Assembly: GCF_008087625.1 (NCBI RefSeq)
Contig: NZ_CP042997.1
Coordinates: 6,200,001 to 6,264,000 of the forward strand
DNA: 64,000 nt
Direction: 5' to 3'
Origin: Aquisphaera giovannonii
GTDB taxonomy: Bacteria; Planctomycetota; Planctomycetia; Isosphaerales; Isosphaeraceae
Shown here: one piece after another, positions 18,798-59,635 of the stretch
Layout of the letters: each line of letters opens with the position of its first letter
How positions within the stretch are numbered: the stretch's first letter is position 1
Program-made: the position numbers and the translations under genes
Notes under the pieces: model-generated
Told to the model about the DNA's origin: nothing
Database searches by the model: none
The model's input: only the letters and a program-made list of their open reading frames with translations

Positions 18798-20858
18798 CTA
18801 GTTTCGCGCCCGCCGCCCGGCCCGGGCCTTCGCCTTGGCCTTGCCGCGGGCGCTCTGCCCCTGCGGCGAGGCCGAGGGCCGGCCCTTGCCGTCGCCGCCC
18901 CCGCGGAGCTGCTGGATCCGGTCGCGGAGCGCCGCGGCCCGCTCGAACTCGAGCTTCTCCGCCGCCTCAAGCATCTCCGCCTCGAGCGCCGCCAGGAACT
19001 CCTCGTTGGCCTCCGTGACCTCGTCCCGGCCGACCGCCTTGCGGACGACCTGCCGCGCCTGGATCTCCTCCTCGATCCCCCTCCGGATCGCCTTGCGGAT
19101 CGTCTCCGGGGTGATGCCGTGCTTCGCGTTGTACTCCAGCTGGAGCTCCCGCCGCCGCTTCGTCTCGTCGATGGCCCGCTGCATCGACGGCGTGACCTTG
19201 TCGGCGTAGAGCACGACCTCCGCGTTGACGTGCCGGGCGGACCGCCCGATCGTCTGGATCAGCGAGGTCTCGCTCCGCAGGAAGCCCTCCTTGTCCGCGT
19301 CCAGGATGCAGACCATGGAGACCTCCGGCAGGTCCAGCCCCTCGCGGAGGAGGTTGACGCCGACCAGGGCGTCGAAGGCCCCCTCGCGGAGCTCGCGGAG
19401 GATCGTCACCCGCTCGATCGCGTCGAGCTCGGAGTGCAGCCACTTGCACCGCAGCCCCTGCTCCTTGAGGTACCGCGTCAGGTCCTCCGCCAGCCGCTTG
19501 GTCAGGGTGGTGATGAGCACCCGCTCGCCCCTCTCGGCGCGGGCCCTCGCCTCGGCCAGCAGCGCGGGGACCTGGCCCCGGGCCGGCTCGACGCGGACGA
19601 TCGGGTCCACCAGGCCGGTCGGCCGGATCACCTGCTCCACGACCTCGCCGCCGGACATGGCGATCTCGTAGTCGGCCGGCGTCGCCGAGACGAACAGCCG
19701 GCGGTGGAACTTCGTCTCCCACTCGTCGATCCGCAGCGGCCGGTTGTCCAGGGCGCTCGGGAGCCGGAAGCCGTGCTCCACCAGGGTCAGCTTGCGGCTG
19801 TGGTCGCCGGCGAACATGCCCCGGACCTGGGGGACCGTCACGTGCGACTCGTCCAGGATCAGCAGGCTGTCCTTGGGGAAGAAGTCCAGCAGCGTGCTGG
19901 GCGTCTCGCCGGGCTTCCGCCCCGAGAGGTGGCGCGAGTAGTTCTCGATCCCCGAGCAGTAGCCCACCTCCAGGAGCATCTCCATGTCGTACCGGGTCCG
20001 GGCCTCGAGGCGCTGGGCCTCCAGCAGCTTGCCCTGCTCCTTGAGCTGCTGGAGCCGCTCGTCCAGCTCCTTGCCGATCGCCTCCACGGAGGACTGGATC
20101 CGCTCCTCCGGCAGCACGAAGTGCTTGGCCGGGTAGATGTACATCTCCTCGTGCGTCTCCAGGACGTTGCCGGTGAGGGCGTCGATCGTCGCCAGCCGCT
20201 CCACCTCGTCGCCGAAGAGCTCGATCCGGTAGCCGATCTCCTCGTAGGCCGGCCAGAGCTCGACCACGTCGCCGCGGACCCGGAACTTGCCCCGCTCGAA
20301 GCTCACGTCGTTGCGGTCGTACTGGATGTCGATGAACTTCAGGAGCAGCTCGTCCCGGTCCACGATGTCGCCCCTGGTGAGGCGGACCATCATCTTCCGG
20401 TAGTCGTCCGGCGAGCCCAGCCCGTAGATGCACGAGACGCTCGCGACGACGATCACGTCCTCCCGGCTCACCAGGGCGCTGGTGCTCGCCAGCCGGAGCC
20501 GCTCGATCTCCTCGTTGATCGAGGCGTCCTTCTCGATGTAGATGTCCCGCTGGGGGATGTAGGCCTCGGGCTGGTAGTAGTCGTAATAGCTGACGAAGTA
20601 GCGGACGGCGTTGTGCGGGAAGAACTCCCGGAACTCGGCGTAGAGCTGGGCCGCCAGCGTCTTGTTGTGCGACATCACCAGCGCGGGCTTGCCGTACTGG
20701 GCGATGACGTTGGCCATGGTGAAGGTCTTGCCCGAGCCGGTCACGCCCAGCAGCGTCTGGTTATCCCGCCCCTGGCGCAGGCCCTCCACGAGCTTCTCGA
20801 TCGCCTGGGGCTGATCCCCGGCGGGCCGGTACGGGCTGACGAGCTGGTAGGCGGGCAT
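18798..20858 (-). CDS. uvrB: Excinuclease ABC subunit B
   Basis: UvrB is the damage-verifying helicase-like subunit of nucleotide excision repair. The 686-residue protein shows [19 protein letters not shown] (nucleotide loop, near residue 40), the DNA-clamping hairpin [15 protein letters not shown] near residue 95, helicase motifs such as [10 protein letters not shown] and [15 protein letters not shown], and QTIGRSARH. The C-terminal UVR motif ([20 protein letters not shown]) binds UvrC. The last 30 residues are a Lys/Arg-rich extension. No clear ribosome site precedes ATG 20858. A LexA-like box lies 45 bases upstream, suggesting damage control. Confidence 0.97.
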
Positions 20859-47357: not shown

Positions 47358-48053
47358 GCCCTTCGCCTCACTTTCGGGACCAGGAAAGGCGCACTCGACG
47401 ATTGATACGGTCGTCGAGGGTGGTGAGTTCGGCGGATTGAGGTCGTCTCGGGTGACGCGGAGCGGCGGCGATTCGCGGCTGCGGTCAGGTCCCGCGAGGC
47501 CGCCGGGAGGCCATGTGCTCCTCCATTTTCTGGATTGGATGGTCATTTCTTAACTGTATTCTGGGGAAACCTTTACGTTGATTCCTTTGGTGGTGACGCA
47601 GCGTTTTTGCAGGGAAACTAGGTGATCTACAGAGGTTTGTGGCAATCCATGGAACGCTTCAACGTCCATTATGCGCCCCGGGGCGAGGTTCCGCGTGGGT
47701 TTTCGGCGGTGGCCAAGGAAAGTTCAATCTAGAAGGCTGGCACGCCGGTTGATCTGGTACCCCCCCAACAATCCCCCACCACCGCCGAATTACTTTCGGA
47801 CCTTCAACGGGGCTGAGCCCCAGGTGCGTCTTTTGCAATCCATTTTGATGTAGGGCTCTTTTGCTTCCCGATCGCGCCCGGATCAACCCTCCCCACTTTC
47901 GCTTCGGCGGGAGCTGTGCACTCAATCATGGGTGCGGTGCAAGGAGCCTCGACTCATGGTCAGTGAAAAACCTAAACTTCGGGGGAGAAGATTCGGAAGC
48001 CGGTAGCCATACGGACGAAGGGGAGGGGCAACTCTCCCCCTTTCTCTTGCGCA
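47358..48053. other. Intergenic boundary of the AT-richer island
   Basis: About 0.7 kb with lower GC than the rest of the window. It contains a perfect GGGGCTGAGCCCC palindrome at 47809-47821 and runs of C and T, but no convincing gene. An 88-codon frame on the minus strand (47659-47925) has no recognised family and no good ribosome site. The left edge near 47540, where composition changes, may be an insertion boundary. I found no integrase, transposase or clear direct repeats. Confidence 0.5.
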
Positions 48054-48082
48054 TTGATCGCTGTCTCCACTCACGTTATAAT
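48054..48082 (+). promoter_or_regulatory. Strong promoter of the tRNA-like RNA
   Basis: TTGATC at 48054-48059, a 17-base spacer and a perfect TATAAT at 48077-48082. Transcription would start near 48089, five bases before the first base of the tRNA-like acceptor stem. This is the best promoter match in the window. Confidence 0.75.
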
Positions 48083-48088
48083 AGTCGC

Positions 48089-48234
48089 AGGGCGGGCCTG
48101 TGAAGGAACGGCAGACGTAGGGAATTGCCCCGTGGCTCTCTTCGGAGGATCATAGGGAATGCCTGGTCCGAAAGGCGTGAGGGTCCAAATCCCTCCAGGC
48201 GTACTTCAGACCCCGATCTTCCAGTCGGGGTTTT
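48089..48234 (+). ncRNA. tRNA-like small RNA without a canonical anticodon arm
   Basis: A roughly 146-base transcription unit with its own promoter and terminator. By hand, 48094-48100 (GGGCCTG) pairs with 48196-48202 (CAGGCGT) with one mismatch, leaving A at the discriminator position. GAACGGCAGA resembles a tRNA-Leu D-loop. A long variable arm reads GCCT-GGTCCGAA-AGGC, strongly tRNA-Leu-like. A T-arm follows, GAGGG-TCCAAAT-CCCTC. In place of the anticodon arm is a long imperfect hairpin, CCCCGTG...CATAGGG, with an inner stem capped by a C(TTCG)G tetraloop. No CCA is encoded. An alternative pairing of 48161-48165 with the 3' end is possible. It could be a diverged tRNA, a tRNA-mimic regulator or part of a mobile element. 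Confidence 0.6.
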
Positions 48235-48235
48235 A
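48208..48235 (+). terminator. Rho-independent terminator of the tRNA-like RNA
   Basis: The stem CCCCGA/TCGGGG (48211-48216 with 48225-48230) encloses an eight-base loop and is followed by TTTT, with further A-T pairs below. It begins five bases after the predicted acceptor end. Confidence 0.8.
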
Positions 48236-48333
48236 TGTTGCGCACGTCCTTCATGTTCCATCTGTTCATGTGTGCATTTTCCGGTCGGTCGCGGCGCGAT
48301 GCTATTGAGATGTGATTATCAGGAGGGCCGGCA

Positions 48334-48867
48334 ATGGATCACAGGAGTTTCGGCGTGGACTGGGGCGACGAACGGTATCCGAATCCAACACGACAGGGCT
48401 ACGACGTAGCCCAAGTCTGTATGAATGGCCACATGATGAACAGTGCTTCTCGAGGAATGCCCGACGGTAACAAGTCGTTTTGCGACCGGTGCGGCGAGAA
48501 GACGATCACATCATGCCCCTCTTGTAATAATTGTATTAGTGGACTTGATTGGGATGGCCCATCGCCGGAACCTGAGCCAGCTCTCCACTGCGAACATTGC
48601 GGCAAGTCCTACCCCTGGACCGAGCGTAAGAAGGCGGCGGCGCTGGAGCTGTTCGCCGAGCTACTTGACCTGGATAACAAGCAGAAAGAACAGCTAAGCC
48701 AGGACCTGGACGCGGTGGCCTCGGACGTGCCACGAACGAAGGTCGCCGCTGTGAGGATCGATACGTTGCTGGCCAAGGTGAAAGACCAAGGCGCCGATAT
48801 GCTCAAGGGCGTGCTGGTCGAGGTTATGAGCGAGTCGGCCAAGAAGATGATGTGGCCGAATCAGTGA
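48334..48867 (+). CDS. DUF2321 zinc-ribbon protein
   Basis: The 177-residue protein has the hallmark of the DUF2321 family: YDVAQVCMNGHMMNSASRGM, then a zinc ribbon built from SFCDRCGEKTITSCPSCNNC and a second pair in LHCEHCGKSYPWTERKKAAA. The C-terminal half is helical (LFAELLDLDNKQKEQLSQDL) and probably mediates interaction. The family's molecular role is not known to me. The gene starts after an AGGAGGG site, 100 bases after the tRNA-like RNA's terminator. Its codon use is less GC-rich than that of the surrounding house-keeping genes, consistent with an acquired island. Confidence 0.85.
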   Translation: MDHRSFGVDWGDERYPNPTRQGYDVAQVCMNGHMMNSASRGMPDGNKSFCDRCGEKTITSCPSCNNCISGLDWDGPSPEPEPALHCEHCGKSYPWTERKKAAALELFAELLDLDNKQKEQLSQDLDAVASDVPRTKVAAVRIDTLLAKVKDQGADMLKGVLVEVMSESAKKMMWPNQ

Positions 48868-48913
48868 GGGGCAGCTGGCTGACCTTGGGATGAATCTTGT
48901 CGGAGGTACGAGG

Positions 48914-49156
48914 ATGAGTGTCCCGGAGAGCGCGGTTCGACTACTTGTTGAGGGGGTTTATCAGAAGGAGCAGGAGCAACAGGAAGCCACAATCCAGCAG
49001 CTTGCTGGCCATTTTGGTAGTGACCCGGACTTAGCCGTTCAGAGCGCCATCCGGGTGGCAGAAGAATGCAAGAGTCGCAAGCTGCTCAGTGTGCCGATCA
49101 ATTATCAGGGATTGACGACAACGACAGCTGGGCGAGCTTACATCGGCAAGCCTTGA
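48914..49156 (+). CDS. Small winged-helix-like protein
   Basis: The 80-residue protein begins at 48914 after GGAGGTACGAGG. It starts SVPESAVRLLVEGVYQKEQE, continues TIQQLAGHFGSDPDLAVQSA as a likely helix-turn-helix, and ends LLSVPINYQGLTTTTAGRAY, which looks like the wing and final strand of a winged-helix domain (compare the LTxxG endings of such regulators). It follows the DUF2321 gene by 46 bases and is probably in its operon. It may be a transcriptional regulator of the island, which is inference. Confidence 0.65.
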   Translation: MSVPESAVRLLVEGVYQKEQEQQEATIQQLAGHFGSDPDLAVQSAIRVAEECKSRKLLSVPINYQGLTTTTAGRAYIGKP

Positions 49157-49211
49157 ATCCCAGTCAGAACATGCGAGCATACTACCCCGGCTTTACCGCT
49201 GGTTAATAAGA

Positions 49212-49240
49212 GCCGGCCTTCTGTTGCTGGCTAGGCCGGA
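49212..49240 (+). terminator. Possible terminator after the small winged-helix gene
   Basis: CCGGCC pairs with GGCCGG across a 16-base loop, followed by AATTT. It separates the DUF2321 pair from the DUF262-HEPN pair. Confidence 0.35.
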
Positions 49241-49369
49241 ATTTGCACGAGCGTAGACGACTGGCATGTCATGACGGTTGACGTGGATGGTTGGCGGACG
49301 TTCCACGCGATCGTCTGAGTGGCAAGTATGCTGGACAATATCTAGCCCGTCCGCTTGAGGGAGTCCAAG

Positions 49370-50473
49370 ATGGGTCTTCAGGAAGAGATCGACGAGAAAA
49401 GGAAAGAGATTTACACCAACAAGTATAGCATCTCTATCGGCGAACTCCTCCATCTTTACGCCGATGAAGAGTTGGATGTCCATCCAGAGTACCAGCGTTT
49501 CTTGCGTTGGACGGACCAGCAGAAGACGGACCTAATCGAATCGATTGTGTTGGGTATCCCAATCCCTCCGATATTCGTTGCTCAACGCGCGGATGGCGTT
49601 TGGGATATTATAGATGGGCTTCAACGTATGGGGACCATCTTGCAATTCATCGGTGTAAAGCGCGATGAAAAAGGACGCAGGTTGCAGCCCCTCGTTCTCA
49701 GAGCGACCAAAGCCCTTCCTTCGCTTGAGGGGATGAAGTGGGAAAACCTCGACGATCCGACCGATGAAAAGGTTTTTTCAAAGGCGCAGCAGCTCCTCAT
49801 TAAGAGATCATCACTGGATATTACAATTGTATTGAAAGAGAGTGACGAACAGAGCAAGTACGAGCTCTTCATGCGGCTGAATACTGGTGGATCTCTAGCG
49901 TCGCCCCAAGAAGTTAGAAACTGCTTGCTCATCTCCATTAACCGCGATTTTTTCAAATGGATGGAGTCCCTCCGCGAAGACAGAGACTTTCGCGAAACAA
50001 CGGCGCTGACCGACCGCAAGGAAAATGAGCAATATGCAATGGAATTGGTTCTTCGCTTCGTCACTCTAAGGAATCTTCCGGAAGAGAGGCTGTCTGGCTT
50101 GGGCTTAATTGGCGACTTTCTCACAGACCGAATGATCGATCTCGCGCGTGCAAATTCGCTTGACTACGACAGGGAGGCCAACGCGTTTCAAAGCACCTTC
50201 AGGCTACTCAACCAGGCCTTGCGTGACGACGCGTTCAGGAAGTGGGATGGAACACGGTTTACAGGTGGATTCTCAATCTCCGCCTTCGAGGGCGTTGCTC
50301 TTGGAATCGGACACAATGTCGACAAGGAGGGCTTCAACGGGGATCAACTTCCCGAGAAGGTCAAGGCTCTTTGGGAAGCCCCCGAGTTTAGGCAGTGGAC
50401 CGGCGTAGGCAAACCGGCCGGCTCGCGTATTCCGAGAACCGTAACGATTGGAAGGAATCACTTTAAACCATGA
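49370..50473 (+). CDS. DUF262 (ParB/GmrSD-like) protein
   Basis: The 367-residue protein has the DUF262 core: SIGELLHLYADEELDVHPEY and QRFLRWTDQQKTDLIESIVL (the Tyr-Gln-Arg substrate element), GIPIPPIFVAQRADGVWDII and DGLQRMGTIL, where Asp82-Gly and Gln-Arg match the DGxQR catalytic signature of ParB-like NTPase/nuclease domains. ELFMRLNTGGSLASPQEVRN is the usual second motif. The C-terminal half is helical. DUF262 proteins occur in phage-defence systems such as the type IV restriction enzyme GmrSD. The stop overlaps the next start by ATGA, so the two proteins are made together. ATG 49370 follows GAGGGAG. Confidence 0.85.
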   Translation: MGLQEEIDEKRKEIYTNKYSISIGELLHLYADEELDVHPEYQRFLRWTDQQKTDLIESIVLGIPIPPIFVAQRADGVWDIIDGLQRMGTILQFIGVKRDEKGRRLQPLVLRATKALPSLEGMKWENLDDPTDEKVFSKAQQLLIKRSSLDITIVLKESDEQSKYELFMRLNTGGSLASPQEVRNCLLISINRDFFKWMESLREDRDFRETTALTDRKENEQYAMELVLRFVTLRNLPEERLSGLGLIGDFLTDRMIDLARANSLDYDREANAFQSTFRLLNQALRDDAFRKWDGTRFTGGFSISAFEGVALGIGHNVDKEGFNGDQLPEKVKALWEAPEFRQWTGVGKPAGSRIPRTVTIGRNHFKP

Positions 50474-51120
50474 TGTTCAATAGAACCGATGGTGACGAGG
50501 CTTTCCACGATTGGCTCGATAGCGAATTCAGCTGGCGTCGCATCGAATTATCCTATTATGAGAGAGCGGTTCGCGCTGCCAATCCGGGAGCCGAAGCGAT
50601 GACGGTCCGAGGTGCCATACCGATCCTCTATGCACATTGGGAAGGCTTCGTTAAATCATTAGGCACGGCGTACCTGGAGTTCGTGCTGTCGCGTAATAAG
50701 AATTTCGACAACCTCAAACCTAACTTTTTAGCTCTTGGTATGAAGAAGCATCTCCATGATGCGACATCAACTCTCAAGGGCAGAGTTTTTGTGGAAGCAT
50801 GCGATCTTATCCTGGCCAAGCGCTCGACCCGGGCATACTTCTTGACACTTGACGCTGTGGAGACTGGCTCAAACCTAGGATATGATTTGTTTGCTAATAT
50901 ATTACACATTGTAGGCCTTCCATTTAGGCCGGAATATGAGACCGCCAGGAATACAATAATCGAACCACTCAGACAATTTCGTAATACGATCGCTCACGGT
51001 AAAGAACTAGTAGTGAACACCGTGAGGTACAATGAGCTCCACCAGAAAACCTTTGCCTTGCTAGCCTTGCTCCGCGACGATCTGGACAATGCCGTAACGC
51101 TCAAATCTTACTTAGCTTAA
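50470..51120 (+). CDS. MAE_28990/MAE_18760-like HEPN nuclease
   Basis: The 216-residue helical protein has the HEPN signature R-x4-H in QFRNTIAHGKELVV (Arg171, His176), the RNase active site of the superfamily. Upstream, AIPILYAHWEGFVKSLGTAY and LDAVETGSNLGYDLFANILH match the MAE_28990/MAE_18760 group. Overlap of 4 bases with the DUF262 gene shows the two are co-translated. HEPN proteins act as toxin RNases in defence and toxin-antitoxin systems. In this pair the HEPN protein would be effector and the DUF262 protein sensor or neutraliser (inference). AT-richer codons mark it as probably acquired. Confidence 0.85.
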   Translation: MMFNRTDGDEAFHDWLDSEFSWRRIELSYYERAVRAANPGAEAMTVRGAIPILYAHWEGFVKSLGTAYLEFVLSRNKNFDNLKPNFLALGMKKHLHDATSTLKGRVFVEACDLILAKRSTRAYFLTLDAVETGSNLGYDLFANILHIVGLPFRPEYETARNTIIEPLRQFRNTIAHGKELVVNTVRYNELHQKTFALLALLRDDLDNAVTLKSYLA

Positions 51121-51527
51121 GAGGATTGGCTTCGATTTCATGTGGGTACGCGTGAATATTTATTCCTCTACGGGCCGCTATGCCCGCACGCAGTCGCGTC
51201 CATTGTTGCTTTATTCTGCAAATAACGCTTGACTGTTATCGCGTTCCGCACTGGCATCCAAACGATTGGGGCATTTTGTCGGACGGCGAGGAGAGGCAAC
51301 CTACGGCTTAAGCTCTTACTCCGATGAGCGAGGGCGATTTGGTGTTCATCTGTGATTCGCTCCGCGACGAGCGCGGCACAGGTCGACAAAGCTCGCCCGC
51401 ATGATCGAGCGGTCGCCACGAACCATACGCCGCAAGCTGGCGCTGAAGAGCAAGGCCGCTCTATAAAGTGAACGTGCGATCAAGAAAGTTTCTTGAATCG
51501 GCGATTGGCCTGAAAAACGGGCAAAAA
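51121..51527. other. Intergenic region between convergent HEPN and DUF4145 genes
   Basis: About 0.4 kb of mixed composition between two genes that face each other. Two overlapping minus-strand frames (51168-51419 and 51346-51531) show Arg/Leu/Ala-rich sequence but no recognisable domain or ribosome site. They may be relics of an older gene. No inverted repeat strong enough for a terminator was found. Confidence 0.4.
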
Positions 51528-52253
51528 TCAAAGCATCGGCTTCTGTCCCGCAGCCTTCAGCTTTGCATTGAAGGCATCTCGACGGGCCTGACTTTCCGGC
51601 AGGTCAACGTAGTAGAACGTCATGAGAGCCCTCAATACCTCTAACGTCCACTCCGCTTCTCCGGGCTGAACGTCGATGATATCGCCGGTGCTTTGATCTT
51701 TCTGCTGATGTGCGGCGAAATTGCCGACATTTCGGATGGCATCAAGGTCTATTGCGAGATGCGAGGGAATCTTATTCAGAGCAAGTAGTTTCTTGACTTG
51801 ATCAATCAAATTCCGCTCTGAGAATCCCTCTTTATCTTGGATAATCGTTTGAAGGCACCGACGACTGAGCGCAGCGCTCGCCTTCGGAGATATCGGCAAT
51901 GCATCATGAGCTTCCCTGAAATCAGAAGCCAATGGTTCAGGGACTCCTGTAGGAACATGGCAGAGAGGGTGCTTTGGCCATAAAAGAGTGATTGATTTTA
52001 TTGTAGACATGTGATGGTCGCCGATTCTACTGTTCTCGATCTCGTTCAGCCAGATGATCTTACCCTTGCAAGAAGGGCATAGATGGTTTGTGGAACTATA
52101 AGATATATACACATCTGGCGAAACAAATCTTGAGGGGCCTCCGCCTGGGGTGAATCGTTTGAAGTTGAAGATCGAATGTTCGGCGTTCACCCCTTCAAGG
52201 CTGAAAATGATGCCGCAATAAGGGCATTCTTTGGTCTCGTGAGGGTTGCTCAT
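51528..52253 (-). CDS. DUF4145 protein with N-terminal zinc ribbon
   Basis: The 241-residue protein has an N-terminal zinc ribbon (ECPYCGIIF and LCPSCKGKIIWL), then the DUF4145 domain: SPKASAALSRRCLQTIIQDK, LDAIRNVGNFAAHQQKDQST, and DVQPGEAEWTLEVLRALMTF. DUF4145 belongs to the HEPN-like helical class; the Arg-Asn-x-x-x-x-x-x-His stretch in IRNVGNFAAHQ corresponds to the usual active-site segment. Many members are fused to or sit near restriction and defence proteins. ATG 52253 follows GGAG-type sequence. A TTGACC/GTTAAC pair at 52293-52298 and 52270-52275 could be its promoter. Confidence 0.85.
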   Translation of the reverse strand: MSNPHETKECPYCGIIFSLEGVNAEHSIFNFKRFTPGGGPSRFVSPDVYISYSSTNHLCPSCKGKIIWLNEIENSRIGDHHMSTIKSITLLWPKHPLCHVPTGVPEPLASDFREAHDALPISPKASAALSRRCLQTIIQDKEGFSERNLIDQVKKLLALNKIPSHLAIDLDAIRNVGNFAAHQQKDQSTGDIIDVQPGEAEWTLEVLRALMTFYYVDLPESQARRDAFNAKLKAAGQKPML

Positions 52254-52596
52254 ACTCCAGTCTCCGAAAGTTAACCTGCTTGCGTTAATTCAGGTCAACA
52301 TGGCGGCTGTTGCCTAGGATGCCGCCTCTGTGCAATTTGCATCACATGTCGGCCTCCGCTCTAGAGACTTCGAGGTTGAAGCTGGCGCCCCGGCACCGCA
52401 TGGGGCAAGCTAAGAGCAAGTCGCTAGTTAGGGAATCCGATAAGCTGGCGATCCTCCGTGCCGTGGACGGAGAGTGACATCCGTTTGTCACCTGCATATC
52501 CTAATTCGACACTGCAGCAAATTCGCAGAAAATGAGAAAAAGCCAGGTGTTTTGCTGGCCGTATATTTAACGTAGGCACCAAGATTGTTAAGCTTG
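52254..52596. other. Right boundary of the AT-richer island
   Basis: About 340 bases upstream of the DUF4145 gene and downstream of the 659-residue envelope protein gene. It is AT-rich near 52500-52600 and ends where GC-rich coding sequence resumes. It holds the presumed DUF4145 promoter and otherwise nothing I can identify. No repeat matching the left boundary near 47.5 kb was seen. Confidence 0.45.
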
Positions 52597-54576
52597 TTAG
52601 GGTTGTAAGTCGCTATGGGGTAGTGTTTTAGGTCTGCGGCTGGCCAAGTGCTCTTCGATCTTCTGGATCCCCACGACGCCGACGGAAGCCTGGAGGACCT
52701 GGGCGCCCAGGTACTTCAGGCCCTTGCGAGGGGGGATCTGGAAGACGACCGTCGCGCCGTCGCGGAGCAGCCGGACGGGCTTCCAGGCGCTCAGACGCAG
52801 CCCGGCCTTGGCGCACAGGGGGCGGCCGATGGCGGCGACCTGCTCCAGGCTCATCTTCGGCAGGGCCTCCGGCAGGCGCTCGAGGATCCGGAAGAATCCG
52901 CCCGCCGAGCGGACCGCCCACCATTGCCCGAGCTTCCGCGAGGCCGCCTGCGCCGCCGCGGAGCCGGCGGCCTTGCCGGAGCCGACGGCGCCGGCCTCGG
53001 CGAGGTCCCGGCCGACGGATCGGGAGCCCTCGCGGACGGCCGCCTTCACCTCGGCCCGGGCGAGCTCGGCCGCGGCCGCGCCCTCGGGCTGGATGGCCGC
53101 CAGGCTGAGGACGTCGGCGACGACGAAGCAGCCGTCCACGAGCGCCCAGGTCATCTCGCCGGAGGTCGGCGTATGGCCGCTCGCCAGGACGTTCGCCAGG
53201 TGGGTCACGTCGTAGAGCGGCAGGAACTGGTAGAACCGGACCTGGTTGCTGGCCAGGCTCTCCACCCGAGACAGCCCGTCCTCCTTGATGGTCCGGATGA
53301 CGGCCTGGCCGTTGTCGCCGGTCGCCAGGAGGGCCAGCTTGGCGAGGGACTCTCCGAGCGTCCGCTTCTCCTTGGCCTGGAGGTAGGCCAGCGCCTCCGG
53401 GCCGGTGTCGGCGGCGGCCACGGGCGGGATCACGGCCGGGCCGTAGGCCTTGAGGATCTGCTGGAAGTCCGGGTCGGTCGCGTACTTGTCCAGGATGACC
53501 AGGGCCATCGCGCCGTGCTCCCCGAGCGCCGCGACGGCCCGGGGGCGCAGGGCCGGGTCGGAGTAGGCGGAGAAGACCACGTCCGCGGCGTCGGGCCCGG
53601 CCTTCTCCAGGGCCCGCTCGCCGGCCTCGCCGAACTCGACGGCCAGCCGCAGGGCGTTCGGGCTGCTCCCCGCGGCCGCGACGAGCCCGCGTGCGGCCAC
53701 GTGGCCGAGGTGCCCCGCGACCGTCTCCGGCCGGTGGGTGCGCAGCAGCTCGTCCACGTACTCGGAGTTGACCTGGAGCAGGATGAGGGCCTGGTCCAGC
53801 GGCGGGGAGCCCCCGGCGGCCTCCAGGACCGGCCCGTATAGGCCCACCAGGGCGAAGCCCTCCAGCCCTTGCACGCGGAAGGCCTCGAGCGCCAGGGAGC
53901 GGTGGTTCTCGACCGTCCGGACGGCGGAGCGGAGGTCGGAGGCCCCGTTCTCCAGGCTGATCAGGCTGAGCAGCGTCAGGGCCTCCCCCAGGTCCCGCTC
54001 GTCGTCCCGGAAGCTCTCCACGAGGTCGGCCAGGCTGGAGGAGTCGGCGAGGATCAGGGGCAGGGCGTTCGGATACCGGGCCGCCAGCTTGCGCTGCGAG
54101 GCGGAGAGGCCAGCCAGCTCGGCGATGAGGATGCCGCGATCGGTGTCGTCGGCCCGCTTGAGGCCGAAGTATTCCCGCCAGTGGAGCAGCACGTCCGCCG
54201 CGGCGTCGTCGTCCAGGATGTCGCGGAGCCGGCGGAACTCCGCGGGATGCTTGTCGTAGAGGTAGACCGCCTCCAAATCCAGGCGATCGAGCAGGCGGAG
54301 GCCGCGCAGGCCGTCGGTCCGCTCGACGGAGACGGCCGTCTGGCGGAACCGGTCCGCGACCCGGGCCACGAGCTCCCGGTCGCCGGCCGGGCTCGCCTGG
54401 TACTTCGCGGCGAGCGTCGCCCGGATGTCCGCCGGCCCCGGCGATTGCGCCGGCCCGGCGGCCGCTCCCGGCTCGCCGGGGGCGGGCTCGGGGCGGGCGG
54501 GCCGGTCCTTGAGCGTGAGCTTGCTCAGGACCCCCAGGGCGGTCAACAGGACGACGAGGGCGAACGTGCGCTTCAT
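52597..54576 (-). CDS. Large exported planctomycete protein of unknown function
   Basis: The 659-residue protein starts at ATG 54576 with an N-terminal membrane anchor or signal (RTFALVVLLTALGVLSKLTL), then a Pro/Gly linker, then an all-helical body of repeated units, for example ALTLLSLISLENGASDLRSA, PDFQQILKAYGPAVIPPVAA and FGEAGERALEKAGPDAADVV. The C-terminal 130 residues are more varied (LRDGATVVFQIPPRKGLKYL). Similar helical units occur in the 335-residue protein at 46.4 kb. The family is not named to me. By position it was probably next to that gene before the island inserted. Confidence 0.7.
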   Translation of the reverse strand: MKRTFALVVLLTALGVLSKLTLKDRPARPEPAPGEPGAAAGPAQSPGPADIRATLAAKYQASPAGDRELVARVADRFRQTAVSVERTDGLRGLRLLDRLDLEAVYLYDKHPAEFRRLRDILDDDAAADVLLHWREYFGLKRADDTDRGILIAELAGLSASQRKLAARYPNALPLILADSSSLADLVESFRDDERDLGEALTLLSLISLENGASDLRSAVRTVENHRSLALEAFRVQGLEGFALVGLYGPVLEAAGGSPPLDQALILLQVNSEYVDELLRTHRPETVAGHLGHVAARGLVAAAGSSPNALRLAVEFGEAGERALEKAGPDAADVVFSAYSDPALRPRAVAALGEHGAMALVILDKYATDPDFQQILKAYGPAVIPPVAAADTGPEALAYLQAKEKRTLGESLAKLALLATGDNGQAVIRTIKEDGLSRVESLASNQVRFYQFLPLYDVTHLANVLASGHTPTSGEMTWALVDGCFVVADVLSLAAIQPEGAAAAELARAEVKAAVREGSRSVGRDLAEAGAVGSGKAAGSAAAQAASRKLGQWWAVRSAGGFFRILERLPEALPKMSLEQVAAIGRPLCAKAGLRLSAWKPVRLLRDGATVVFQIPPRKGLKYLGAQVLQASVGVVGIQKIEEHLASRRPKTLPHSDLQP

Positions 54577-58342: not shown

Positions 58343-59635
58343 ATGGGCTTCATTCGGAGACGATTCACCAAGGAGCAGCGACAACGCCTTCGCGGCATCA
58401 TCGCGGATGCGTTCACCCGGGCCGACCTTAATCAGCTCGTTGAGGACGCCTTCGACGAAAAATTAGAGAACATTGCGTCTCCCGGCAACATGTTAGAGGT
58501 TGTACGTGAATTGATCCTATGGTCGAGCAAGCGGGGCAGAGAGAATGAATTGTTGTGCGCGCTGCGAGCGGCCCGTCCGTCAAGGGCCGACGTCCAGGCG
58601 ATTGCAGGAGAACTACTGCCCGAAGATTACGATTGCTTGAAATCGCGGGACTCGTCCGATCAGGCCATAACCGAGCTGCCTCTTGGCGTGCTTGCGCACT
58701 ACAAGCCTTGGACGGGGATGTCGGGGATCGAATCGGCGACATGGCTGGTCCTGGTTCTTTCCTTGTTCGCGCTTGGTCTTGCCTCCAGGTCGGAAATCCT
58801 GCGTCAGCAGAACAAGGAGCCGGAAAAGTCACTGTCCGAAATCGACCGAGTCCGGGGCCGCCTTGAGGTCAGGCTCGATGCACGCGAGCGTCCCCTGTTC
58901 AAATTCCACGGAGGGGGCCTCCCTGTTGCAGACGGGAGGCCGGGCATGGTGGCCCACGACCCCGAGATCGAGCGCCTGTCGAAGGACCTGAGTACTCTCC
59001 TTGATATATTCGATCGCGCTATAGGATCGGCGGGATTGTCCGAGCGGGATCAACTTCGGCTCGACCTGGCCGAGACCGCCCTGAACTGGAAGAACCGAGC
59101 TGGGACGGCCCTGAGCTGGGGGAACCAATACAGCATCAGTGACCTCCTAAAGGACCGCTGCCTCATGCCCGCAGCGAGGGACATCGACCCCGGCATTAGT
59201 CTGTCCAGTTTGCTCGCCCCGGGCAACGATTGTGGCCGATTTGATCCCCTGAGAGCCGCCTCCATCGAGGGATACGTCGTCGCTGTGAGGGACGGAGACC
59301 TCGTCGGGCTTGTGCGCCATTTTCATCATCCCAGGCCATTACCGGTCGAGACGATCATCGAGATATCCCTCACGAAGAATGCTCAACCCAACAAGCGAGT
59401 TAGGGCGATCCTCACCCCAAGGAGCCGCGCACTGAGCAGCATCCGAGGGGACGTCTGGGAGAGCGCCAGTCTGAAGAAATCCCTGGTAGGTCACCGCGTG
59501 CGATTGGTTGGTTGGGTGGTCTTTGATCCGGTTGCATCCTCCGAATCCGAGAATACCAATCCGGGCAATACGCAGAACTCGGCTGCGACGGCGTGGCGTA
59601 TTTGCCCCGTGTCTCAGATCCGCATAGGGCCGTGA
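58343..59635 (+). CDS. Effector-associated domain 1 (EAD1)-like membrane protein
   Basis: The 430-residue protein begins FTKEQRQRLRGIIADAFTRA, DLNQLVEDAFDEKLENIASP, then NMLEVVRELILWSSKRGREN and ELLCALRAARPSRADVQAIA. This is the helical effector-associated domain EAD1 of NTP-dependent biological conflict systems, where it recruits partner proteins carrying the same domain. A membrane helix (ATWLVLVLSLFALGLAS) follows near residue 130, then a charged coiled region and a C-terminal domain (SIEGYVVAVRDGDLVGLVRH, VRLVGWVVFDPVASSESEN) of unknown fold. A second EAD1 protein would be its partner; none is in the window. It lies exactly between the two copies of the DUF4038 gene end. Confidence 0.8.
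   Translation: MGFIRRRFTKEQRQRLRGIIADAFTRADLNQLVEDAFDEKLENIASPGNMLEVVRELILWSSKRGRENELLCALRAARPSRADVQAIAGELLPEDYDCLKSRDSSDQAITELPLGVLAHYKPWTGMSGIESATWLVLVLSLFALGLASRSEILRQQNKEPEKSLSEIDRVRGRLEVRLDARERPLFKFHGGGLPVADGRPGMVAHDPEIERLSKDLSTLLDIFDRAIGSAGLSERDQLRLDLAETALNWKNRAGTALSWGNQYSISDLLKDRCLMPAARDIDPGISLSSLLAPGNDCGRFDPLRAASIEGYVVAVRDGDLVGLVRHFHHPRPLPVETIIEISLTKNAQPNKRVRAILTPRSRALSSIRGDVWESASLKKSLVGHRVRLVGWVVFDPVASSESENTNPGNTQNSAATAWRICPVSQIRIGP

Follow-up and report, generated by a model that had tools for sequence, protein, structure and literature searches.

Near the left end of a small, recently acquired island in the chromosome of Aquisphaera giovannonii lies an element that, judged from its sequence, descends from a tRNA-Leu and in which the anticodon arm has been replaced by another segment, with a promoter-like site upstream and a terminator-like hairpin downstream. 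Our first choice, held tentatively and at somewhat under even confidence, is that it specifies a transcribed, non-decoding RNA derived from tRNA-Leu, carried as cargo of the island. The window is the whole stretch of 64,000 nucleotides that was analysed (positions 6,200,001 to 6,264,000 of NZ_CP042997.1), and all coordinates of the element and its island are positions in this window.

Layout of the putative RNA gene and its tRNA-Leu-like body

By its signals, 48020-48235 on the + strand looks like a single small transcription unit, composed of a hairpin, a promoter-like site, an RNA of ~115 nt and a terminator. The promoter TTGATC-17-TATAAT named in the original prediction is present at 48054-48082 (+) and agrees with the consensus at 10 of 12 positions; taken alone it is within chance and not significant (1 found per 1.5 kb vs 0.5 in shuffles), and its spacing would place the start of transcription near 48089-48090. 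A terminator-like hairpin upstream of it (48020-48039, +; 4 such sites per 1.5 kb vs 1.6 expected) possibly insulates the RNA gene. Downstream, an intrinsic-type terminator hairpin followed by TTTT (48208-48233, +; -15.1 kcal/mol) is the only strict site on both strands of the 64-kb window in our own scan, in which it appears in two adjacent registers and for which the control gave 0.35 strict sites per shuffled window on one strand. A stock terminator scanner has no entry for 48208-48233, probably as a result of extending the stem into the T run. The Rho-independent terminator had been predicted directly after the discriminator base; hairpin and T run are there, but only after a gap of 5 nt.

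The acceptor stem is built from GGGCCTG (48094-48100, +) and a 3' strand that ends with the discriminator A (48196-48203, +). As predicted, it contains one mismatch: six of the seven pairs form between 48094-48100 and 48196-48202, with G-U at 1:72 and G-G at 2:71. Positions 8 to 26 (48101-48119, +) retain U8, A14, G18 and G19, and the D stem consists of an A10-U25 pair, an A11.G24 mismatch and a G12-C23 pair. A class II variable arm (GCCU/AGGC, 48161-48176, +) and a T arm (48179-48195, +) follow, the latter with 5/5 bp, a 7-nt loop and a C at position 55 (48185). The D-loop, long variable arm and T arm were thus correctly recognised as tRNA-Leu-like, and our own scanner for a tRNA-Leu-like body finds the element as the only such place on both strands of the window (control: 8 matches in 200 shuffled windows, one strand each). 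Together with the promoter-like site and the terminator, these arms confirm the central proposal of the original prediction: a separate RNA gene, tRNA-Leu-like in its body, whose anticodon arm has been replaced.

The absence of an encoded CCA had also been stated correctly. None follows the discriminator A, which is usual in this genome and therefore unremarkable, since only 2 of 30 host tRNA loci checked show an encoded CCA, both in one array. The host chromosome contains dense tRNA arrays, L072 (C1:3084554-3087568) with 22 and L073 (C1:6718288-6721009) with 19 ARAGORN genes; in L073 the CCA is encoded on most genes shown, unlike in the other loci checked.

At several positions the element is worn. 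For comparison, 62 distinct tRNA-Leu sequences were taken and 4 dropped because their T arm was not located, which left 58, 7 of them read with a one-base shift at the 5' end. Position 55 is C in the element vs T in 58/58 of these, position 10 is A vs G in 55/58, and position 11 is A where all 58 have C, T or G. The full 7-bp acceptor stem of a tRNA (6/7 pairs here) and the T54 T55 C56 of its T loop (C55 here) are lacking, the D stem is broken, and no hairpin with a 5-bp anticodon stem, a 7-nt loop and an anticodon was seen in the element. Leucine identity of E. coli tRNA-Leu is described as depending crucially on A73 and not on the anticodon, with G18:U55 also important (PMC9976931). The element keeps A73, whereas G18:U55 is broken by C55; given that importance in E. 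coli, weaker leucine charging should be expected by analogy.

Recognition tests, ancestry and search for relatives

ARAGORN calls neither a tRNA nor a tmRNA on the element, and Rfam gives nothing over the gathering threshold (without threshold, four matches with E 0.47 to 7.2). In the comparison with known families that had been suggested as a check, the element thus proves not to be a normal tRNA and falls in no known Rfam family. A tmRNA is rejected for lack of an ARAGORN or Rfam match, and a Y RNA (YrlA) is rejected for want of an Rfam match, an exclusion that holds only if Rfam contains a YrlA model.

A covariance model built from the element sequence alone (R1) matches ordinary tRNA genes end to end, the best other matches having E 2.9e-8 and 5.4e-8 per genome. 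Among 392 genomes of the phylum, 135 have a match at E <=0.1, the best besides the element reaching 49.5 bits (E 2.9e-8), and the matches listed, element aside, are 79-94 nt long. In the 41 genomes of the family the best match, at 49.5 bits, is an ordinary tRNA-Leu. When 58 loci with R1 matches were examined by ARAGORN, a tRNA-Leu was found at the place in 47 and a tRNA-Arg in one, ten loci with short flanks being unconfirmed; 16 of 20 loci taken from BLAST matches are tRNA-Leu(UAG). It is because a single-sequence model matches tRNA-Leu end to end (49.5 bits) that we consider the element to be of tRNA-Leu descent. The host genome has tRNA-Leu genes with all five usual anticodons (UAA, CAG, GAG, CAA and UAG), and the element is therefore not needed for decoding.

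No full-length relative of the element was seen in its own genome, in the 41 family genomes or in the 392 phylum genomes (the element's genome included), the R1 searches of the latter two sets being run with stricter filters. BLAST against the own genome and 99 relatives likewise gave no relative, nor did pattern scans of 392 and 45 genomes, in which matches were judged on at most 80 bases each; blastn of the element against plasmids and phages yielded short tRNA-type matches alone. Viral scans for the element's unusual features gave 10 loci for a D arm with A10 A11 and 9 for a T loop with C55, and R1 matches none of them at E <=0.1. As no homologue was found, there is no sign of selection on the element. 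Six longer R1 matches in the family (108 to 139 nt) comprise a tRNA-Arg that contains additional sequence, two tRNA-Leu(UAG) 3' halves and three places at which ARAGORN sees no tRNA. The 3' halves (L151, G000:C1:1910984-1911057, in the host; L150, G002:C297:21031-21163) have an integration-like setting: L151 lies ~21 kb from the whole gene and L150 ~4 kb from the best R1 match in its genome.

The segment that replaces the anticodon arm

Between D arm and variable arm, a segment of 41 nt (48120-48160, +) takes the place of the anticodon arm. Its part 48124-48160 can pair into a 14-bp hairpin with interruptions and a UUCG loop, around which lies an 8-nt direct repeat, TAGGGAAT (copy 1 at 48118-48125, copy 2 at 48153-48160, +), of a length that 12 of 500 shuffles reach. 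The variable-arm loop contains a complement of the presumed tetraloop UUCGGA (48141-48146, +), UCCGAA (48167-48172), so that a pseudoknot between the two is possible. The imperfect stem with a C(UUCG)G loop of the original prediction can form, its loop having this second complement. The energy minimum of the RNA (-40.4 kcal/mol) is not the cloverleaf, and the RNA is no more stable than its shuffles (z 0.31). Forcing the acceptor and the T arm costs ~2 kcal/mol, and the full fold as predicted (acceptor, T arm, variable arm and hairpin) has -29.9 to -32.7 kcal/mol, i.e., 8 to 10 kcal/mol above the minimum. A pseudoknot with the stem order a-V-a'-V' obtains a score that 6% of the element's own shuffles reach.

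The island and its neighbouring genes

The acquired island (47537-52645) stands out by its GC content, which is 48-57% from 47.5 to 52.5 kb as against ~63-75% around it. The two other genomes of the genus have the flanking genes side by side, with no counterpart of 47537-52645 at this site; in two genomes of other genera these genes are likewise near neighbours. This 5.1-kb island of defence type is situated at the 3' end of a conserved gene and has imperfect border repeats: 47513-47536 and 52646-52669 are alike at 19 of 24 positions, both also resemble the intact site, and the best 24-mer identity between the border regions (20) is reached in 0 of 100 shuffles. No integrase was recognised among five island proteins searched. 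The island encodes, by domain match, a DUF2321 zinc-ribbon protein (48334-48867, +), followed by an 88-aa protein (48890-49156, +) without Pfam, PADLOC or NCBIfam match, a DUF262 (GmrSD_N) protein similar to the NsnA and PD-T4-2_A models (49355-50473, +), a HEPN protein of the MAE_28990 type, again by domain match (50470-51120, +), and a DUF4145 protein weakly like PD-T7-4 (51528-52253, -). With the RNA gene near the left end and defence-type genes behind it, the earlier description of an element heading an island of acquired genes is accurate. Elsewhere in the window, 58343-59635 encodes a protein with the effector-associated domain EAD1, of conflict-system type.

A link of the RNA to the DUF2321 or HEPN genes, also part of the original prediction, is not borne out. 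DUF2321 relatives occur in 3 others of 45 family genomes, with no DUF262-HEPN pair beside them in the stretches examined (7.7 to 18 kb). HEPN relatives (E <=1e-10) occur in 2 others of 148 genomes of the class, each paired with DUF262 and without DUF2321. At these three DUF2321 and two DUF262-HEPN loci R1 has no match at E <=1; the upstream side is visible in four of the five, one DUF262-HEPN locus (L601) stopping at a contig edge where the upstream genes would be. On this absence of conserved adjacency at five loci, four of them visible on the upstream side, we reject the idea that the RNA belongs to a DUF2321 or DUF262-HEPN system. The RNA is cargo of the island, and a partnership with the island genes gets no support from the related loci.

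Viral RNAs with a tRNA-Leu body and a replaced anticodon region

RNAs of a similar plan were found in viral contigs. The scans of these contigs looked for tRNA-Leu D-loop and T-loop motifs set too far apart; the counts are lower bounds. A strict rescan requiring 7/7 acceptor pairs and 5/5 T-stem pairs was applied to 292 loci, 253 of them viral (2.29 Mb) and 39 from a genome-contig scan, and gave at least 161 matches vs 0 on the reversed sequences. There are 24 matches of ordinary length and 137 long ones, 134 of which, all viral, are not called by ARAGORN; the 24 and the three long matches with an ARAGORN tRNA were left out of the viral count, and the 39 further loci from the genome-contig scan hold no class members. 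What remains is a class of at least 120 loci with 134 matches, 121 distinct sequences, 50 acceptor strands and 108 non-redundant inserts. That this is a set of real RNA genes is well supported, both by the variety of its paired acceptor stems and by the absence of matches in the reversed control.

Since the viral loci had been picked by their D-loop and T-loop motifs, these motifs and the two inner T-stem pairs are uninformative, while that choice has no bearing on acceptor pairing, the outer T-stem pairs, positions 8-14 or the features of the inserts. The acceptor strand AGTCAGG is common to 61 of the 121 distinct sequences. A73 is present in 97/121, U8 in 121/121, C11 in 117/121 and A14 in 119/121, and A10 occurs in 6/121 and A11 in 0/121; a CCA is encoded after 8 of the 134 matches. 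From the D-loop motif to the T stem there are 48-109 nt in the viral RNAs, 62 in the element and 33-38 in four ordinary tRNA-Leu controls. Within the inserts, a stem next to the T arm scores 12.3 on average vs 9.4 in shuffles (z 7.4). The excess grows when a second stem is added in the order a-V-a'-V' (22.1 vs 17.6, z 5.9) and does not when that stem is nested as in a normal tRNA (17.5 vs 14.7, z 2.7), both scores including the variable-arm stem. In a looser viral set (142 inserts), the upstream part has >=6 nt of complementarity to the variable-arm loop in 19.6% vs 6.7% expected.

In the strict count each viral locus has at most four class members (L330, L503, L481, L437, L482 and 115 others); three loci carry three or four, and some members lie inside phage tRNA clusters. 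A phage GroEL gene is also found in L502 (5626-7239), where it adjoins the RNA, and in L481 (5278-6912). Rfam on 12 viral loci gave tRNA calls, some of them class members at 32-38 bits, and one RT-17. BLAST against phages found no relatives of L330, and D-arm matches alone or nothing for two other class members, in searches that also took in plasmids. Bacteroides phage BS-TP2 contains a class member at 19550-19657, between a DUF2303 gene and a NinG-type gene, at a place with no annotated feature; all 108 bases are identical in a human-gut phage record, and the RNA is also present in four IMG/VR loci. Of 90 pattern matches in 80 loci listed from the genome-contig scan and 10 loci from a viral scan, 76 were called tRNA-Ser. 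Within the open-access papers searched, we found no description of anticodon-replaced viral tRNA-Leu-like RNAs.

The element shares with this class the tRNA-Leu-like D-loop, the 5-bp T stem, A73 and the over-long middle; it departs from it in the acceptor (6/7 instead of 7/7 pairs) and in the D stem, which is not intact (A10, A11).

Explanations for the element

If the element gives rise to a working RNA, the tRNA ends (acceptor stem, elbow and T arm) would act as a chassis, with host tRNA enzymes trimming and protecting the molecule, and the segment in place of the anticodon arm would be a free working domain that most likely pairs with or binds a partner. We infer such transcription, tRNA-like processing and function from several features. 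In favour count the RNA's own promoter-like site and terminator and the terminator-like hairpin upstream; the tRNA-Leu ancestry seen with R1; the host's full tRNA-Leu set, which makes the element dispensable for decoding; the retained T stem (5/5), A73, U8, A14, G18 and G19; the site of the island being empty in two congeners; the occurrence of the same plan in at least 120 viral loci with 50 acceptor strands; and the precedent of an island pseudo-tRNA, tRNA-Other of Bacillus cereus (PMC3399842). On the other side count A10, A11 (found in none of the 121 viral sequences either), C55 and the G-G at 2:71, the fold z of 0.31, the lack of a homologue, and the absence beside relatives of DUF2321 and DUF262-HEPN.

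Nearly as likely, and a serious rival not named in the original prediction, is that a tRNA-Leu gene carried as cargo of the island is decaying: a small duplication or insertion would have changed its anticodon arm, and it would now be drifting with no function. Such decay would account for the departures at positions 10, 11, 55 and 71, for the repeat around the hairpin and for the element being a singleton. An ordinary tRNA-Leu(UAA) in the phylum has the same acceptor strand, GGGCCTG, and no selection is therefore needed to explain why the stem still pairs once the arm has gone. Yet the terminator, the only strict one found in the window, is intact and the promoter-like site, though not significant alone, is present; in addition, the altered segment, at 41 nt, is no simple copy, and, as read from the sequence, removing one repeat unit would leave no anticodon arm. 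The choice of a non-decoding island RNA over decay is thus a close one, in which the worn core speaks for decay and the control signals speak against it.

The other explanations are much less probable. Some HEPN nucleases cleave tRNA anticodon loops, and an RNA with elbow and acceptor and without a cleavable anticodon could be a decoy or substrate for the HEPN (or DUF4145) nuclease of the island or for another tRNA-directed enzyme. We consider this unlikely: the RNA, HEPN and DUF262 genes do lie together on one 5.1-kb island, but R1 has no match near the five related loci with DUF2321 or DUF262-HEPN genes, one of which is truncated on the side that matters, and C55 should weaken the elbow. The decoy, sensor or regulatory roles of the original prediction are guesses. 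Still more improbable is that a phage or phage satellite imported a member of the viral class that does the same job here as in phages. Plan and length range are alike (73 nt from G18 to G53 vs 58-120 in long viral members), and so is the possible stem order a-V-a'-V', though the element's pseudoknot score is within reach of its shuffles. R1, moreover, scores ordinary tRNA-Leu of the family at 49.5 bits and the best of 22 viral loci at 37.8, from which a probably separate origin of the element, from a bacterial tRNA-Leu, follows. Hardly any weight falls on an intron-bearing or attachment-site copy of a working tRNA: the genus does carry tRNA-Leu(UAG) 3' halves elsewhere, as integration leaves them, but the element has both tRNA ends, its segment shows no anticodon loop, the island borders lie elsewhere and the host tRNA-Leu set is full. 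We have rejected both forms, the intron-bearing tRNA and the attachment-site half, on the two ends, the missing anticodon loop and the position of the borders.

Implications and comparison with known systems

Taken alone, the element is one more pseudo-tRNA at a genomic island, notable since the arm is replaced and not lost. A wider reading, which we regard as doubtful, would make it a functional, chromosomally encoded representative of a widespread and hitherto undescribed type of RNA, most evident in viruses, that combines a tRNA-Leu chassis with a variable, often pseudoknotted domain. For E. coli LeuRS, charging is reported to need A73 and the elbow and not the anticodon, while editing needs the anticodon arm (PMC9976931); given these requirements, such RNAs could carry leucine, would not decode, and would perhaps escape LeuRS editing. 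If so, they would mimic tRNA in being stable and chargeable, and would dock through the variable arm on a target specific to the phage or island. As the search prompted by the element shows, tRNA-Leu bodies with replaced anticodon regions are present in many viral contigs, are missed by ARAGORN and are unannotated in a cultured Bacteroides phage.

Among known systems, the ordinary class II tRNA-Leu of bacteria has the D-loop, variable arm, T arm and discriminator A in common with the element, which differs in having no anticodon arm, in C55, the 2:71 mismatch and the broken D stem, and in being unseen by ARAGORN and Rfam. tRNA-Other of B. cereus, described as a pseudo-tRNA that flanks a pathogenicity island, has no role in translation and is proposed to work inside a larger regulatory RNA (PMC3399842). 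By description, and not by sequence or arm, it resembles the element as a pseudo-tRNA at a genomic island; unlike in the element, its tRNA-like part sits within longer regulatory RNAs (PMC3399842).

RNAC and RNAD of phage T4 are small RNAs beside the T4 tRNA genes and are given as of unknown role (PMC3014915, PMC9697503). Within their region (NC_000866, 70908-71171), a 92-nt stretch of 70908-71046, stopping one base short of the RNAC 3' end, could fold into an acceptor of 7 bp, a T arm and a hairpin resembling a variable arm. The scan that picked it out recovered 5 of the 8 T4 tRNAs and had no match in RNAD. Unlike the element, RNAC has no tRNA-Leu D-loop, and its tRNA-like part is confined to the 3' portion. 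The viral class offers a comparative handle on the old question of what RNAC, RNAD and similar RNAs by phage tRNA genes do. Its members are like the element in their tRNA-Leu body and over-long middle and unlike it in having kept the acceptor stem, of which 7/7 pairs were required for the count, and the tRNA core. The artificial tRNA scaffold for RNA production in cells carries a payload in place of the anticodon stem; that scaffold is man-made, and the element would be a natural version of it.
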